Below, piece by piece: positions 33,192 to 38,338 of a stretch of DNA of 38,338 nucleotides. The stretch is taken from the NCBI GenBank assembly GCA_013214355.1, contig JABSSL010000047.1, positions 1-38,338 of the forward strand, written 5' to 3'. Position numbers and translations under genes: made by a program. This DNA comes from Saprospiraceae bacterium (lineage in GTDB: Bacteria > Bacteroidota > Bacteroidia > Chitinophagales > Saprospiraceae). Position 1 is the first letter of the stretch, and the number at the start of each line of letters is the position of its first letter. A model generated the notes under the pieces. The model did not search any database and had not been told where the DNA came from. It was given only the letters and a program-made list of their open reading frames with translations.

Positions 33192-33206
33192 TGCAATGTT
33201 GTTGCA
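33192..33206. promoter_or_regulatory. Palindrome box A (TGCAAT-GTT-GTTGCA)
   Basis: First of four copies of TGCAAY-N3-GTTGCA. Its right arm overlaps the -33 TTG (33202-33204) of the promoter at 33202-33232. Begins 39 bp before box B. Confidence 0.6.
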
Positions 33207-33232
33207 AAAGAGCTATGATAAAAGTATATTTG
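33202..33232 (+). promoter_or_regulatory. Promoter TTG-N20-TATATTTG under boxes A and B
   Basis: TTG at 33202-33204, 20 bp, TATATTTG at 33225-33232, a full -7 match. Predicted start near 33239. Box A covers the -33 and box B the -7, so a bound repressor would block it. Confidence 0.6.
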
Positions 33233-33247
33233 CAACAATGTTGCGTT
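33229..33247. promoter_or_regulatory. Palindrome box B (TTTGCAAC-AAT-GTTGCGTT)
   Basis: Second copy of the palindrome; the left arm shares TTTG with the -7 element TATATTTG. One mismatch in the right arm (GTTGCG). Confidence 0.6.
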
Positions 33248-33355
33248 AATCAGTGGTTGCACAAATACATTAACGTGACGTTGTAAAGATTTTTTAATAG
33301 GTAGTAAACTTTCGGGGTGCTAATTATGGGCATAATTGGCACCCCTTAGCTTATT
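33239..33355 (+). ncRNA. Candidate small RNA with terminal hairpin
   Basis: From the predicted start near 33239 the transcript would hold a 5' stem-loop (CGTTAAT 33244-33250 with ATTAACG 33269-33275), about 37 nt of AU-rich single strand (33277-33313), then the strong hairpin at 33314-33345. No start codon opens a reading frame in it. This is the usual architecture of a regulatory sRNA; a leader with an attenuator is the alternative, as the next gene begins at 33672. Confidence 0.4.
33314..33345 (+). terminator. Strong 14-bp hairpin, likely sRNA terminator
   Basis: GGGGTGCTAATTAT pairs with ATAATTGGCACCCC (one G-T) around GGGC, followed by TTAGCTTATT. There is no coding gene directly upstream on this strand; the hot-dog-like gene ends 253 bp earlier. 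Confidence 0.6.
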
Positions 33356-33534
33356 AAGGGATCTGTCTCTTCTACGCTCACAAATAAATTGCTCACAAGT
33401 CAAGTATCCAGCCTAGCCGATTTTATCCACATCTAAGCAGCAGCCGTAAATCTAATTTATTCCTCTATTCTAAGGTAGCCTTTGCTAATCATACATCCTC
33501 ACCAGCTTGGTTCGTTTTTTGGACTCTAGATCAG

Positions 33535-33565
33535 TTGGTTTTGTTTAACTATTGGTATACATTTG
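33535..33565 (+). promoter_or_regulatory. Promoter of the DUF3299-like lipoprotein
   Basis: TTG at 33535-33537, 20 bp, TACATTTG at 33558-33565, a full -7 match with the same spacing as the promoter at 33202. Leader about 100 nt. Rest of 33356-33671 shows nothing else. Confidence 0.5.
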
Positions 33566-33671
33566 GAGTAACAAATAGTGGGCAAGTTTTTAATATATGG
33601 AGGACCATGAGCATAGCAGAACTAGACCTTCATAGGCCCTTGCAATAACATACTAAAACGAAACTATTTGC

Positions 33672-34367
33672 ATGAGACCTAGTTTCTACCTTTCTGGGCT
33701 ACTATTTTCTGTTCTTTTCGGGCTTTTGTTATCGTCGTGTTTAGGAGATAGCCAAAAGGCGATGAATGGTGGTGCTGCCGCCGAACAGCAGTCAGATAGT
33801 ATCCGACTTACCAACCCTTCAGAGCTTGCTGGAAACACTCCATCCTCCGGAGGGCAACCGGAAGATTCTACCATTTATAAATGGGACGATCAGATTTTTG
33901 ATTGGGTTGAAATTGGAGAATTGGAAAGACTCAATCACCCCTCCAATAATTTAACGATAGATATTGATGTAAATAATCCCACTGAAGTGCGTTGGGAAGT
34001 TCTGATGAATATACTGTATCAGTTGAAATACTATTCAGAACTAGACCTGTCAATATTTGCTCCTGTTTTTGGTCCAAATTTAGAAAGACTGGATGGTCAG
34101 ACCGTAGTGATTGACGGATATATATTGCCGATTGATGAAGAACAAGGAATCTGGGCGTTATCCGCTTTTCCCGTTGCTTCTTGTTTTTTCTGTGGGCAAG
34201 CAAGCCCATCTTCTGTTATCAGTATTTACTTTAGTGAAAACCAGGGGCGAACCCGATATGCAACTGGAGACAGGCTTTCGTTAACGGGTACTTTGACCTT
34301 GAATCACGATGATCCCGTAGAACTTTACTACATACTGAAAGAGGCAGAAGGAAGATTACTGCAGTAG
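33672..34367 (+). CDS. DUF3299-like lipoprotein
   Basis: A 231-residue exported lipoprotein (LFGLLLSSC, Cys23). The linker 26-75 is Ser/Gln/Asn-rich. The C-terminal domain (about 135-230) has VVIDGYILPIDEE, then SCFFCGQASPSSVISIYF, then GDRLSLTGTLTLNHDDPVEL, the layout of DUF3299. The CFFCG pair (two Cys three apart) could bind metal or redox-react. I recall DUF3299 proteins beside zinc-responsive transport genes in Pseudomonas, which I could not check here. It lies between the two pairs of TGCAAY-N3-GTTGCA palindromes, with its own promoter at 33535. Confidence 0.7.
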   Translation: MRPSFYLSGLLFSVLFGLLLSSCLGDSQKAMNGGAAAEQQSDSIRLTNPSELAGNTPSSGGQPEDSTIYKWDDQIFDWVEIGELERLNHPSNNLTIDIDVNNPTEVRWEVLMNILYQLKYYSELDLSIFAPVFGPNLERLDGQTVVIDGYILPIDEEQGIWALSAFPVASCFFCGQASPSSVISIYFSENQGRTRYATGDRLSLTGTLTLNHDDPVELYYILKEAEGRLLQ

Positions 34368-34520
34368 TGATAATTATATTTTTGATCCGGTTCAGCGAGA
34401 TCGTCAGTTTATGGGAAAGCTTACTTTAACGCAGCAGTTTTAAGCCGTTCTAGATGAAGATCCCATGGGACTACATTGTCCTGAAACCAAGTCTAGGGTC
34501 TTCGGTCGAATGATAATTAC

Positions 34521-34553
34521 AAAAGGGTACACCTATATCACATGTACCCTTTT
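34521..34553. terminator. Bidirectional terminator between convergent genes
   Basis: AAAAGGGTACA pairs perfectly with TGTACCCTTTT around an 11-nt loop, giving T4 tails on both strands. It lies between the DUF3299-like gene and the small minus-strand gene at 34612. Confidence 0.78.
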
Positions 34554-34611
34554 GAATAGTAGGCTAAGTACTCTTCTTTGGAAAGCGAGCGCTAGCCGAA
34601 TTTTAGCTCCA

Positions 34612-34902
34612 TTATCCGTTCCGCTCTTTGCTTTGAGCTGAACGCATTCCTCCGCCTTGACCGACTCTGCCTGATGTGGTCATTGTACGCCATCCCCCCG
34701 TATCTGTACTTTTGGCTTTGGCTAGGATACCTCCGCCTTCTGTACCATTACTGGCTATGCCCGATATGCGCCAGCCTCCCGTGTCAGTACTGTCTCCTTT
34801 CAAGGCTAAACTCCCATTGCCCGTGCTTCCATTCGAATAAGAGAATCCTCCTACTGCCAGTGCCAGGCAAGATAGCAGCAGAACTTGTTTTAGTAATTTC
34901 AT
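34612..34902 (-). CDS. Small secreted protein with STDTGGWR repeats
   Basis: A 96-residue protein with a good signal peptide (VLLLSCLALAVGGFSYS, residues 7-23). The mature part carries two copies of a unit opening with STDTGGWR (residues 38-45 and 65-72) and closing in a Gly-rich stretch (EGGG; GQGGG), 27 residues apart. The tail is charged (SAQSKERNG). I recognise no family. It has a plausible minus-strand promoter at 34958 and a shared terminator at its 3' end, so it is likely a real monocistronic gene. A surface or matrix role is possible, with no direct evidence. Confidence 0.6.
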   Translation of the reverse strand: MKLLKQVLLLSCLALAVGGFSYSNGSTGNGSLALKGDSTDTGGWRISGIASNGTEGGGILAKAKSTDTGGWRTMTTSGRVGQGGGMRSAQSKERNG

Positions 34903-34957
34903 ATTTGAGGTTTGTAGGGTTGGTTAGAAAATAATGTGCAGCAATCATATGGCGACA

Positions 34958-34965
34958 CAAACATA
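34958..34965 (-). promoter_or_regulatory. -7 element for the small secreted protein gene
   Basis: Minus strand reads TATGTTTG, a full TAnnTTTG match, in very AT-rich DNA. The -33 is poor. Leader would be about 49 nt. Confidence 0.38.
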
Positions 34966-35197
34966 TAATTTATTTTTCAATTTAAAAGTTCCCTGTGACT
35001 GCTTTTTTTTGGTTAGAATATTTTCTTGAAATCTATACAGGAGCCGTATGCAATGAAAGTGGGTAACTAAGTGTATCCATCAGCAGGAACTTATTTTCTG
35101 TAAATTTCCTTTCTGAGAGTGATAAGTCGGATAAGCAACCAAAGTGCAGATTCTATTTGGTGTTCTCAACACAGCGAAAGGAAATAAAAGGGGATAT

Positions 35198-35692
35198 ATG
35201 AAAATACTCATCTTTGGCCCACCAGGTGCTGGTAAATCTAAGCTCGCTTTTGATCTTGGCAAGAAAATGGAGCTGCCCGTTTTTCACGTGGATCATTATT
35301 TCTTTAAGGGACCGGACATTCATGTTCCGGTAAAGGAAGCTATGAAAGAGCTGAAGACCGCGCTACCTGATGACAATTGGGTCATAGAGGGTAATCACGG
35401 AGCTGTGCTATCGTTTCTCACTATGCGGGCAGATCATACTATTGTACTCCAGGTATCTCCATTAATCTGTCTATTTCGTGTGTATAAGCGATACTTGCAG
35501 CAGGACCCTCAGCTTAAGCGGGCTATATCGGAGGGTTGGGAAGAAAAGATGAGTTGGCAGTTTACTTGGTTTATTTTGCGACTTTTTCCCAAAAATTTTG
35601 CGAAACAAAAGCGACAAATCCAGGAGATAGCCATCGGGAAGGTGCATCTAGTTAGGAACGCTAAGCGCTTTGACTTGCACCTATTGCAATAA
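35198..35692 (+). CDS. Adenylate kinase-like P-loop NTPase
   Basis: A 164-residue protein starting at ATG 35198, preceded by AAAAGGGG; the frame opens 18 codons earlier with residues that do not fit the fold. Walker A is GPPGAGKS (7-14). The small size, the following KLAFDLGKKMELPVFHVDHYF and the W-V-I-EGNH segment match the adenylate kinase / DNA topology-modulation (FlaR-like) group of nucleotide-binding proteins. Phosphoryl acceptor unknown. It ends in a perfect hairpin overlapping no gene. Its relation to the palindrome-controlled genes around it is only positional. Confidence 0.8.
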   Translation: MKILIFGPPGAGKSKLAFDLGKKMELPVFHVDHYFFKGPDIHVPVKEAMKELKTALPDDNWVIEGNHGAVLSFLTMRADHTIVLQVSPLICLFRVYKRYLQQDPQLKRAISEGWEEKMSWQFTWFILRLFPKNFAKQKRQIQEIAIGKVHLVRNAKRFDLHLLQ

Positions 35693-35719
35693 GTCAGCAC
35701 TGTTTAAGCCAGTGCTGAC
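35693..35719. terminator. Perfect 10-bp hairpin after the P-loop gene
   Basis: GTCAGCACTG pairs with CAGTGCTGAC around TTTAAGC, starting at the base after the stop codon. It also lies just beyond the 3' end of the convergent gene at 35735. No T-tract. Confidence 0.6.
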
Positions 35720-35734
35720 CAAGGTTGCTTTCAC

Positions 35735-36508
35735 TTATTGCTTCAAGTACTTGGCTCGACCTATTGTCAAGACATTATCCTCTCCGGGCCATAAAAAAGC
35801 CGGGTATCTTTCTTTGTTTCCATTTTGAGACTTCAATTCTAGGTAAAAGCCATCCAGTGTAAAAGTCCCCCTTGCCTGAGAGGAACTGGTCCCCGTTGCA
35901 CCCCCAGCGTTGTACTGTAGTTCACTTTGGCTACTAGTGCCGACGGTGCCTATGTAGTCAAACTGGTTCGGGGAACTGAAACGAATCGCTGTTTCCTTAC
36001 TGATGATGGTGGAGGCTTGTCCCGGCATATTCAGGGTTCCTCCGGAGGCATGTTTGTAGGTGCCCAACAGTTGTTTAGCAGTAAGCGGTTCAAGCGGCTG
36101 GTAGAAAAGGGTTTTACTTTGTCTCCAGCCTTGCTTTTCTGCTTTCAAGGTTCGATCGGCTTGAATGGAGTTAATGGCAGCTAAAGTCGGCCAATGCAGT
36201 TGTAGTACTTTACCTTGTTTTTCCCAACTTCCCTTAAATTTTGCAGGTACATGGGATAGATCCGCTGCGTGCAGGTGGTTTAAATCCAGATCCTTTGGTA
36301 AGGTCTTTAGGGCCGTTCCATCCGGTAATAAGATGAGATAACGCGTCACCAACTTGGGGCCAGTGCTGTAGAACATCATTTTGCTAGCTACATAGATTTC
36401 GAAATTAGCAGTGGTAATGGTAGTAGGTTCTGTCTGCTTAGGCCATAGGTATAGACCTACTGCGGCACTGATCACCAGGAGTGACCAATAGCTTGAGAAG
36501 ATTTTCAT
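35735..36508 (-). CDS. Single-pass membrane or secreted protein, unknown
   Basis: I start this at ATG 36508 (MKIFSSYWSLLVISAAVGLY), giving 257 residues with an N-terminal membrane segment or signal anchor; the frame opens 35 codons earlier without such a feature. The body has about ten short strands (FEIYVASKMMFYSTG, YLILLPDGTALKTLP) and a Gly/Ser/Thr-rich stretch (QYNAGGATGTSSSQARGTF). It ends in FLWPGEDNVLTIGRAKYLKQ. No family recognised. It is on the minus strand, opposite to its neighbours. Confidence 0.6.
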   Translation of the reverse strand: MKIFSSYWSLLVISAAVGLYLWPKQTEPTTITTANFEIYVASKMMFYSTGPKLVTRYLILLPDGTALKTLPKDLDLNHLHAADLSHVPAKFKGSWEKQGKVLQLHWPTLAAINSIQADRTLKAEKQGWRQSKTLFYQPLEPLTAKQLLGTYKHASGGTLNMPGQASTIISKETAIRFSSPNQFDYIGTVGTSSQSELQYNAGGATGTSSSQARGTFTLDGFYLELKSQNGNKERYPAFLWPGEDNVLTIGRAKYLKQ

Positions 36509-36689
36509 GTCGAGTGATTTAATTTGATTTTCGGTTGGGTCAAATATCAGGAGCTTCTGAAGGCGAAGCCTACTTTTTAGGTGAAAGGAGGCCATCCTTC
36601 GACGAGGGTACAAGTGCAGGCTTTGGTGGATATATATTCCTAATGAAAAACTAATGTCGGCTGGTAATCAAATCTTTAGATGAGTTGTA

Positions 36690-36795
36690 GGCAAAAAAAA
36701 GGGGCTCGCTCAAAGAGCAGAGCCCTACCAGATACAACTTAAAACTTTCTTTTCCAAAAAGTATAATGATGTAAAAGTATTCAATTTGCAACAGT
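36690..36795 (-). ncRNA. Possible small RNA from box C to the terminator
   Basis: Implied by the orphan terminator. A degenerate -7 (TTAATTTG, plus positions 36800-36807) overlaps box C; transcription from about 36795 would give about 100 nt. No good -33 was found. The start is speculative. Confidence 0.28.
36693..36726 (-). terminator. Intrinsic terminator on the minus strand with eight T
   Basis: On the minus strand GGGCTCTGCTC pairs with GAGCGAGCCC (ten pairs, one bulged A, TTT loop) and is followed by T8 (36693-36700). No annotated minus-strand gene ends to its right, so it must end a short transcript starting between 36727 and about 36920, where box C lies. Confidence 0.75.
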
Positions 36796-36805
36796 GTTGC
36801 AAATT
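36783..36805. promoter_or_regulatory. Palindrome box C, perfect 10-bp arms
   Basis: Arms AATTTGCAAC and its exact complement around AGT, the best of the four copies. It lies 113 bp before the repeat-protein start and 56 bp to the right of the orphan minus-strand terminator. Confidence 0.68.
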
Positions 36806-36850
36806 AAATTCCTGGTTTTTCAAGCTTTCAGACTTTTTTTGCAGCTAGGC

Positions 36851-36858
36851 TACATTTG
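36851..36858 (+). promoter_or_regulatory. -7 element of the repeat-protein gene
   Basis: TACATTTG, a full TAnnTTTG match; the TTTG is shared with box D. The -33 is weak. Leader about 54 nt. Confidence 0.5.
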
Positions 36859-36873
36859 CAATCTTGTTGCATT
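36855..36873. promoter_or_regulatory. Palindrome box D (TTTGCAAT-CTT-GTTGCATT)
   Basis: Fourth copy, 70 bp after box C and lying on the -7 element of the downstream gene, as box B does at 33229. Confidence 0.58.
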
Positions 36874-36918: not shown

Positions 36919-38338
36919 ATGACTATGAAGCAACTGTACCAAAGTTTGCCATTCATTCTTTTATTCCTATGCCCTTTTTTCCTACAAGCTCAGCTTAGCC
37001 AAATTACGGAGGTAACCCTAACCTTTACTCCATCTAGTGGCTCTGCTATCACGGCTACGGCCACCGATGCAGGAAGTGGACTAGTAGTGGATGGGCCTAT
37101 TACCCTGTCTGAAAGTACAGATTATACACTTGACATTGCCTTAAGAAATGTAGCACAGAATACTGATATTAATGCTGAAATAACCGCTAATCCAGAGCGA
37201 TATCAATTTTTCTTTGAGACGCCTGGTAGTATTATCTCCGGCGATATAGCTTATGGTGATACCGATGCAAATAGCCTACCCGTTGGCCTTGCCAGTTCCT
37301 TCACGTCCGAATGTGTCGAAGCGGATGGTGCGACTGGAAGTTTGCGCATCCTACTTAGTGACCTGATGAGTGATAAAATGGCCAACTCCGTCATCACGGA
37401 TGGTACGGCACAGTTCGATTTAACTTGGACAGTGAATGTAGCTGATGCTCCAGACGCCCCTCCCTGTGAGAATGAAGAAGAGATTATCACTAACGTAATC
37501 TTGACTTGGACGCCAGTAGGTGGAGGAGATCCAGTTGTAGCGACAGCTACGGATCCAGATGGTGAAGGTGTGATGGATTTGATGGTAGATGGTCCGATCA
37601 ACTTGTTAGAAAGTACAGAATACACTTTGGCAGTACGCTTACGTAATGAAATCGAAGGCGAAGAGGTGACGGACGAAATTATGGAAGAGGATGATGAGCA
37701 TATGTTCTTCTTCGCGTTCACCGATGAGATTTTCCTATCACCAGCAGGAGACGGTAATATTGATAACCGTGAAGATCCGGTGAACTATAATGACCAAGAT
37801 GAGAACGGATTGCCTGTAGGTCTTTCCACAAGTTGGACCACCGAGTGTGGCGAAGAGAGTAGCACTGGTTCATTCCGTATTGTCTTGAAGCACCAGCCTG
37901 ATATCAAATCAGCTACTTCTACTGCTGATGATGGCGGAACGGATATAGATTTAACTTTTACGGTGAATGTAGCAGAGGATCCTGATGCACCACCCTGTGA
38001 GAATGAAGAAGAGATTATCACCAATGTAATCTTGACGTGGACGCCAGTAGGTGGAGGAGATCCAGTTGTAGCGACAGCTACGGATCCAGATGGAGAAGGT
38101 GTGATGGATTTGATGGTAGATGGTCCGATCAACTTGCTAGAAAGTACAGAATACACCTTGGCAGTACGCTTACGTAATGAAATCGAAGGGGAAGAGGTGA
38201 CGGACGAAATTATGGAAGAGGATGATGAGCATCAGTTCTTCTTTGCCTTTACGGATGAGATATTTTTATCTCCAGCAGGCGATGGTAACATTGATAATCG
38301 CGATGATCCTGTGAATTACAATGATTTTGACGAGAATA
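36919..38338 (+). CDS. Large acidic secreted repeat protein, 3' end cut by window
   Basis: An open frame from ATG 36919 (or ATG 36925) to the window end, at least 473 residues, with no stop. Signal peptide about 1-28 (LPFILLFLCPFFLQA). The rest is tandem domains of about 177 residues. Domain 1 (31-181) is divergent; domain 2 begins at 182 and domain 3 at 359, both opening PPCENEEEIITNVILTW. Each has TWTPVGGGDPVVATATDPDG, STEYTLAVRLRNEIE, the acidic cluster EEVTDEIMEEDDEH and AGDGNIDNR. The acidic/His cluster could bind metal. Similar repeats are, from memory, in proteins annotated in Bacteroidota as type 1 periplasmic binding fold superfamily, often near TonB receptors. Under control of boxes C and D. 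Confidence 0.82.
   Translation, partial: MTMKQLYQSLPFILLFLCPFFLQAQLSQITEVTLTFTPSSGSAITATATDAGSGLVVDGPITLSESTDYTLDIALRNVAQNTDINAEITANPERYQFFFETPGSIISGDIAYGDTDANSLPVGLASSFTSECVEADGATGSLRILLSDLMSDKMANSVITDGTAQFDLTWTVNVADAPDAPPCENEEEIITNVILTWTPVGGGDPVVATATDPDGEGVMDLMVDGPINLLESTEYTLAVRLRNEIEGEEVTDEIMEEDDEHMFFFAFTDEIFLSPAGDGNIDNREDPVNYNDQDENGLPVGLSTSWTTECGEESSTGSFRIVLKHQPDIKSATSTADDGGTDIDLTFTVNVAEDPDAPPCENEEEIITNVILTWTPVGGGDPVVATATDPDGEGVMDLMVDGPINLLESTEYTLAVRLRNEIEGEEVTDEIMEEDDEHQFFFAFTDEIFLSPAGDGNIDNRDDPVNYNDFDEN
37462..37701 (+). repeat. 240-bp direct repeat, copy 1 (domain 2)
   Basis: Differs from 37993-38232 at seven positions (97% identical), all synonymous. Identity begins at CCCTGTGAG and drops after GATGATGAGCAT. 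Confidence 0.9.
37993..38232 (+). repeat. 240-bp direct repeat, copy 2 (domain 3)
   Basis: Second copy, 531 bp (177 codons) after the first. Flanking sequence between copies is clearly more diverged than the repeat core, suggesting recent duplication or gene conversion. Confidence 0.9.

Follow-up and report, generated by a model that had tools for sequence, protein, structure and literature searches.

We analyzed a window of 38,338 nucleotides, bases 1-38338 of contig C167 in the genome of a Saprospiraceae bacterium (11.19 Mb, 224 contigs), in which four palindromic boxes, A to D, lie in pairs at two promoters. Our data indicate that these boxes are very probably operators of Zur, the zinc-sensing repressor of the Fur family, which would thereby control both window promoters. 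This assignment, predicted from sequence, is based on the enrichment of the motif, the genes found in its context, its conservation, and the overlap of operators with promoter elements; we further infer that Zur binds the boxes and that the genes behind them respond to zinc.

To locate the boxes, the core TGCAAYNNNGTTGCA was searched in the window. The original prediction had described four palindromes, a perfect palindrome with 10-bp arms at box C, and no further copy in the window. The search bore out the four boxes and the arms of box C (Table 1), and all matches with zero or one mismatch fell on A to D, so that at this stringency there is indeed no further copy. When up to two mismatches were allowed, the window held 16 matches (both strands counted), compared with 6.3 ± 3.6 in 100 shuffles, 2 of which reached 16.

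We then counted the core in whole genomes, using the reversed pattern as the control. The window's own genome has the exact core at 12 places versus none for the control, and 84 matches versus 17 with up to one mismatch; 59 relatives together hold 198 exact cores versus 9, with at least one exact core in 51 of the 59. Forty-one loci were chosen by the pattern alone (12 from the own genome, including the window's three, and 29 from relatives); 33 of these 41 boxes are intergenic, and for 30 of the 33 a gene begins no more than 500 bp away. Across the phylum, the strict core was present in 55 of 247 genomes and absent from 192, and a few genomes (G111, G245, G253, G330, and G362) have four or five strict cores each. 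In G330, which lies outside the window's class, five exact boxes fall within 11 kb (contig C1, 1522887-1533405). The window's boxes are also conserved individually. Boxes A and B are retained in two genomes of the genus, G001 and G002, with their spacing of 39 bp unchanged, and in G001 the boxes, this spacing, and the 66-nt leader are kept while much else has diverged. Box C is retained in the Saprospiraceae metagenome-assembled genome L209, where box D has one mismatch and the C-D spacing is 70 bp, as in the window. When DNA of the A/B region was searched in 61 genomes, the one match besides its own was a 61-bp stretch in G035, itself a box pair. These control counts and this conservation contradict a motif scattered at random over the genome and not conserved in relatives.

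Promoters of Bacteroidota carry TTTG or TTG at −33 and TAnnTTTG at −7. The A/B promoter takes its TTG (33202-33204) from the right half of box A and its TTTG from the left half of box B, with a spacer of 20 bp. It had been claimed that the TTTG of the −7 elements is common to boxes B and D and that box A covers the −33 TTG of B's promoter, and both claims hold: the −7 elements TATATTTG and TACATTTG run into B and D, respectively, and the TTG within A is placed 20 bp ahead of B's −7 element. Box C, 70 bp ahead of D, lies outside the core of D's promoter. The same design is seen beyond the window. Among 157 distinct boxes, 91 box sides read TTTGCA, and TA was correctly placed for TAnnTTTG at 36 of these, compared with 54 of 709 TTTGCA words elsewhere (background from 50 loci). 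Moreover, there are 31 distinct pairs of boxes no more than 120 bp apart, and 17 of them have a spacing of 37 to 40 bp (one of the 17 shares a box with a nearer pair), which fits a promoter spacer of 18 to 21 bp; the C/D pair is an exception to this spacing rule.

Which genes stand behind the boxes was determined in the own genome and in 40 mapped regions of relatives. Exact boxes of the own genome precede two ZigA-like COG0523 GTPases (560 and 565 bits; cut-off, 600), a HisI-type phosphoribosyl-AMP cyclohydrolase (PRA-CH) protein, two MerC proteins, a DUF1826 protein, and, on contig C208, an operon encoding a CobW-type GTPase, a DUF3299-like protein, and a Fur-family regulator; the gene for cysteinyl-tRNA synthetase (CysRS) stands behind a one-mismatch box. 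All of these are gene types known from zinc-starvation regulons. In regions of relatives chosen by protein families of the window, boxes precede TonB receptors, ZigA, MerC, DUF3299-like, and Fur-family genes. A box pair in G108 is directly followed by the gene for a protein resembling metal-independent carbonic anhydrase (L129:491-964, + strand; 123 bits, cut-off 350). The original proposal that a scan would find zinc transporters, TonB receptors, or a Zur gene behind the motif was thus upheld for zinc-type genes, TonB receptors, and a Fur-family gene, but not for the own znuA-like gene.

No Fur-family gene had been seen in the window, and candidates for the repressor were found elsewhere, on contigs C200 and C208. 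In all, four Fur-family matches were obtained in the genome; the one on C49 is Fur-like, and the C208 copy lies in the box operon. Eight Fur-like proteins are encoded beside boxes in relatives, and seven of them are closest to the own C200 protein, the eighth being tied. The C200 protein, which has a His-rich stretch, a CxxC motif, and a C-terminal CxxC motif, is taken here as the candidate Zur.

The gene behind boxes C and D encodes a tandem array of an acidic domain, here called REP. Beyond the window end, the gene continues into a type IX secretion system (T9SS) tail (Por_Secre_tail, PF18962; E 5.5e-10, 3' part), and the same tail is found in two relatives. The repeat is about 175 aa long. 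Across 27 domains, D27, D29, G30, G32, D107, D109, H140, P142, G154, and D157 are invariant, and E68, E72, and H76 are nearly so. The structure model is all-beta and confident (Table 1), and a fold search with it gave no PDB match below E 1e-3, the matches listed being mostly immunoglobulin-like and other beta domains. REP-like proteins are also annotated as "type 1 periplasmic binding fold superfamily protein." Searches with REP gave no Pfam domain besides the T9SS tail and no PDB relative by sequence. Against NCBIfam, a single-domain protein (L127:8678-9256, + strand) gave a match below the cut-off (E 0.046) to the Riean_0653 family, whose Riemerella member is described, in the text available to us, as affecting hemolysis (PMC7881567). 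At L019:4568-8587 (+ strand), downstream of a REP array and after a short lipoprotein gene, lies the gene of a 1,339-aa S8 peptidase with fn3, GEVED, and T9SS tail domains.

REP loci were found repeatedly with boxes. A box (up to one mismatch) lay within about 1.5 kb of the match at 11 of 29 REP loci versus 0 of 29 for the reversed control. Six of the nine loci that ranked next (L090 to L098) also contain a box at this stringency; a seventh, L096, has one at the gene start in its longer region L129, and L093 and L097 reach a contig end. To sample REP by the domain alone, which proved more informative than the spread of the strict core, GTDB contigs were searched with the REP alignment, with one peptide pattern lying in the EExxEHxFFF stretch. 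This search returned 358 stretches encoding relatives, of which the best 80, or 78 loci, were kept; several of these come from genomes already in the earlier sample (e.g., L210 is G112), and in a few cases two loci belong to one genome. The exact box was present at 51 of the 78 loci and a box with up to one mismatch at 59, versus 3 for the reversed control. By group, the latter box was found at 14 of 18 loci in Saprospiria, 33 of 40 in Cytophagales, 6 of 12 in Flavobacteriales, 4 of 5 in unassigned Bacteroidota, and 2 of 3 in others. Boxes are also present in Neolewinella antarctica (L229), a cultivable strain. A gene for a TonB receptor of the box-linked family (phmmer E ≤ 1e-20) accompanies REP at 69 of the 78 loci, on the same strand and within 400 bp in 68 of the 69. 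With loci too near a contig end left out, 40 of 73 loci have a box in the 200 bp ahead of the REP gene (control, 0 of 73), and 42 of 63 have one in the 600 bp ahead of the receptor gene (control, 0 of 63). Eighteen receptors from box regions align over their length. The own genome encodes one such receptor at C208:56797-59205, 57% identical to that of G112 and beginning 65 bp after a one-mismatch box, and a second match to the box-linked receptors at 26% identity. Among 72,556 plasmid records, REP occurred in one, from Bernardetia.

We tentatively propose REP as a new extracellular zinc module, a reading we consider quite possible while stopping short of calling it probable. In its small-protein form, REP would partner a ZnuD/heme-type TonB receptor, the two forming an outer-membrane importer of zinc that is under Zur control in Saprospiria, Cytophagales, and Flavobacteriales, and in the window it would have been multiplied into a zinc-gathering surface array exported by the T9SS, with operators lying within the −33/−7 elements. 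Both zinc binding by REP and zinc as the cargo of the receptors are what we infer here.

The transcript of the A/B promoter, starting at 33239, had been predicted to include, perhaps, a DUF3299-like gene. In G002, the order is boxes, leader, intact merC, and DUF3299-like gene, which favors this prediction, with the correction that a decayed merC intervenes in the window. The merC copy of G001 is likewise broken. Since the array is intact in G002 while merC has decayed in the window and in G001, the original unit comprised the boxes, the leader, merC, and the DUF3299-like gene. The DUF3299-like lipoprotein was modeled with a predicted local distance difference test (pLDDT) score of 79.5, and the top PDB fold was 4HSP, the structure of PA4066 (E 8.5e-4; probability, 1.00; template modeling score by target, 0.48), followed by oligonucleotide/oligosaccharide-binding-fold proteins at E 2e-3 and worse. 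No Pfam match to DUF3299 (PF11736) was obtained up to E 5, and the C208 paralogue and the G024 relative matched it at E 0.03 to 0.04, below the gathering cut-off. The designation DUF3299-like is therefore backed by the fold but not by the Pfam score. Two further observations concern this family and His-rich proteins: a protein starting with many DHEGDHDHDH repeats (L291:6855-7574, − strand) is encoded directly ahead of a DUF3299-like paralogue at a contig end, and the protein at L155:9394-10050 has a similar His-rich start.

Within the A/B leader, a hairpin whose surroundings fold with a z score of −5.9 is retained in G001 and G002, with T-rich tails in both; one stem pair is changed on both sides in G001, and one is broken in G002. 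The hairpin may end or slow transcription. The leader element is single copy in the own genome, and a search against Rfam gave no family over threshold, just two sub-threshold microRNA matches. Outside the genus, a covariance model of the leader gave matches (E ≤ 0.1 per genome) in 8 of 195 genomes, against about 20 expected by chance from these rough E values.

Table 1. Features of the two promoter regions in the window (pTM, predicted template modeling score)
Feature	Position	Strand	Remark
Box A, exact core TGCAATGTTGTTGCA	33192-33206	.	Right half contributes the −33 TTG of the A/B promoter
−7 element TATATTTG	33225-33232	+	Fused to box B
Box B, core with one mismatch (GTTGCG)	33231-33245	.	
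Leader element TTTTAATAGGTAGTAAACTTT plus hairpin, 66 nt	33288-33353	+	Occurs in three of the four genomes of the genus
Leader hairpin, 14 pairs, GGGC loop	33314-33345	+	Possible terminator or attenuator
merC relic	33383-33604	+	Stops and deletions; intact 140-aa MerC here in G002
DUF3299-like (ZrgE-like) lipoprotein, 231 aa	33672-34367	+	CFFCG motif
Box C, exact core	36787-36801	.	Perfect palindrome, 10-bp arms 36783-36805
−7 element TACATTTG	36851-36858	+	Fused to box D
Box D, exact core	36857-36871	.	
Exported tandem array of acidic DxDGxG / EExxEHxFFF domain (REP)	36919-38338	+	Continues past window end
REP domain, query and structure model	37474-37998	+	pLDDT 89.1, pTM 0.86

Several results weigh against the assignment of the boxes to Zur. 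Several own boxes stand ahead of genes for which no role in zinc biology is known, namely those for FAD (flavin adenine dinucleotide) oxidoreductases and for S9 and S41 peptidases, and a membrane protein of the PepSY type is likewise encoded behind an own box. At the single own znuA-like gene (C112), the 3.8-kb locus is free of boxes even when two mismatches are allowed, and a box (up to one mismatch) lay within about 1.5 kb of the match at just 5 of 29 DUF3299-like loci (reversed control, 0 of 29). Thirteen of the mapped regions (L141 to L153) had been fetched for the pattern, three because of visible box pairs, and a zinc-type gene, by phmmer labels, was present in only six of them (L141, L143, L147, L149, L151, and L152); in the other seven, several boxes lie inside genes. 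No box is found near the C200 gene, and no tested Fur-family protein passes the Zur cut-off, the PRK11639 scores being 32 to 39 bits versus 167, a shortfall that weakens the claim of an Escherichia coli-type Zur but not that of a protein acting as Zur. On the Fur-family proteins, C200 included, models of PerR and Fur reach about the same scores as those of Zur. This last result would also be expected if the boxes served a Fur-family sensor of another metal, such as nickel or cobalt (as for Nur), manganese, or iron; a HupE/UreJ-type gene lies near a box, the TonB receptors resemble heme receptors, and Nur boxes with TTGCAA half-sites are known. Nonetheless, the gene set suits zinc sparing and handling, with ZigA-like GTPases, HisI and CysRS copies, and DUF3299, and an identical core stands ahead of znuABC-zur in Desulfovibrio (PMC545781), so we consider a sensor of another metal very unlikely. 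A chance origin of the palindromes, or their membership in a repeat element without regulatory function, has a next to negligible probability: although TTGCAA words are frequent in AT-rich promoters, the reversed-control counts are far lower, most pattern-chosen boxes lie outside genes, the boxes follow position and spacing rules relative to promoters, and they are conserved while their flanks diverge. Altogether, the original proposal of a single Fur-superfamily repressor, probably sensing zinc, on both promoter pairs is supported by the genes that the scan returned, despite the unboxed znuA-like gene.

Two further alternatives concern the products of the boxed promoters. It is plausible, if doubtful, that the boxes are Zur operators while REP and its receptor handle heme, calcium, or some other ligand. 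None of the eight scanned receptors passes the ZnuD model NF038289 (54 to 134 bits versus 950; own receptor, 54.5), and seven of the eight, the own one included, score higher on a heme-receptor model than on ZnuD; with such scores, zinc as the cargo of the receptors rests on regulation. In addition, the invariant DxDGxG of REP, which resembles calcium sites, could bind calcium. These points stand against zinc as the ligand, whereas the position of boxes ahead of both REP and receptor genes in many groups and the nearly invariant E68, E72, and H76 speak for it. With regard to the A/B promoter, the conservation of the leader led us to consider that it chiefly yields a short structured RNA ending at the hairpin, with the lipoprotein gene served by its own promoter at about 33535-33570. 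The strong hairpin and its T-rich tails in G001 and G002 would agree with this, as would the promoter-like TTGG..TACATTTG ahead of the lipoprotein gene. However, that promoter-like stretch aligns with the coding sequence of merC, a gene still intact in G002, where boxes, leader, merC, and DUF3299-like gene form one array, and the covariance-model matches beyond the genus do not exceed chance. We therefore regard the short-RNA alternative as unlikely.

Under the preferred assignment to Zur, the two promoters would work as follows. When zinc is present, Zur dimers on A/B and C/D would exclude RNA polymerase by covering half-sites that include the −33 TTG (A) and the −7 TTTG (B and D) of the promoters. 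Upon zinc starvation, Zur would be released and two envelope proteins would be produced: the DUF3299/ZrgE-like lipoprotein, formerly encoded behind merC, now a relic, and a type IX-exported surface protein made of repeated acidic domains. In many Bacteroidota, REP is a small protein whose gene adjoins that of a TonB receptor, and the pair has the same boxes. Outside the cell, REP may bind zinc and pass it to the receptor.

In the open-licence PubMed Central literature, we found no description of a Bacteroidota Zur box or regulon, of a REP protein, or of how zinc passes the outer membrane in Bacteroidota. Two reviews on Zur contained no word starting with "Bacteroid," and the available text of PMC3087516 and PMC6613475 mentions Zur and Bacteroidetes with no Zur site for the phylum. 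From our analysis come an operator motif with which zinc-starvation genes can be located across a large group, a Zur candidate, and a surface domain, not described before, to which a receptor is linked.

The closest known operator is that of Rodionov et al. (2004), who predicted the palindrome ATGCAACNNNGTTGCAT as a ZUR box upstream of znuABC-zur in two genomes of Desulfovibrio (PMC545781). Its core is identical to that of the boxes described here; however, that set comprised two sites in two genomes, whereas ours is a larger Bacteroidota set with promoter-embedded pairs, other targets, and an own znuA-like gene lacking a box. The COG0523 Zur regulons (PMC2770081) likewise place COG0523 GTPases and zinc-enzyme paralogues behind predicted Zur sites, as here; Firmicutes, Proteobacteria, and Cyanobacteria are named in the available text, from which the word Bacteroidetes is absent. 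The zinc link of DUF3299 suggested in the original prediction has a counterpart in Vibrio parahaemolyticus, in which zrgE, the DUF3299 gene of the zrgABCDE operon, appears in the zinc-limitation (Zur regulon) table of PMC9817125. The window lipoprotein shares with zrgABCDE and PA4066 the DUF3299 fold and a zinc-starvation regulon, predicted in the case of the window, and in some relatives an ATP-binding cassette ATPase and a permease are encoded beside the DUF3299-like gene (labels by eye), as in zrgABCDE; the window gene differs in having a merC relic ahead of it, and its product is too distant for the Pfam model. As for the receptors, all eight scanned score on the ZnuD model, far below its cut-off and in seven cases lower than on heme-receptor models. 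Finally, the exoprotein ZepA of Anabaena (PMC10957091) is alike in outline: exported and linked to Zur, it has been proposed to capture zinc on behalf of a receptor in the outer membrane. Its tail is of the PEP-CTERM type, whereas REP comes with a T9SS tail or as a single small domain, in a tandem array here, and with a linked TonB receptor; the two are likened by description rather than by sequence.

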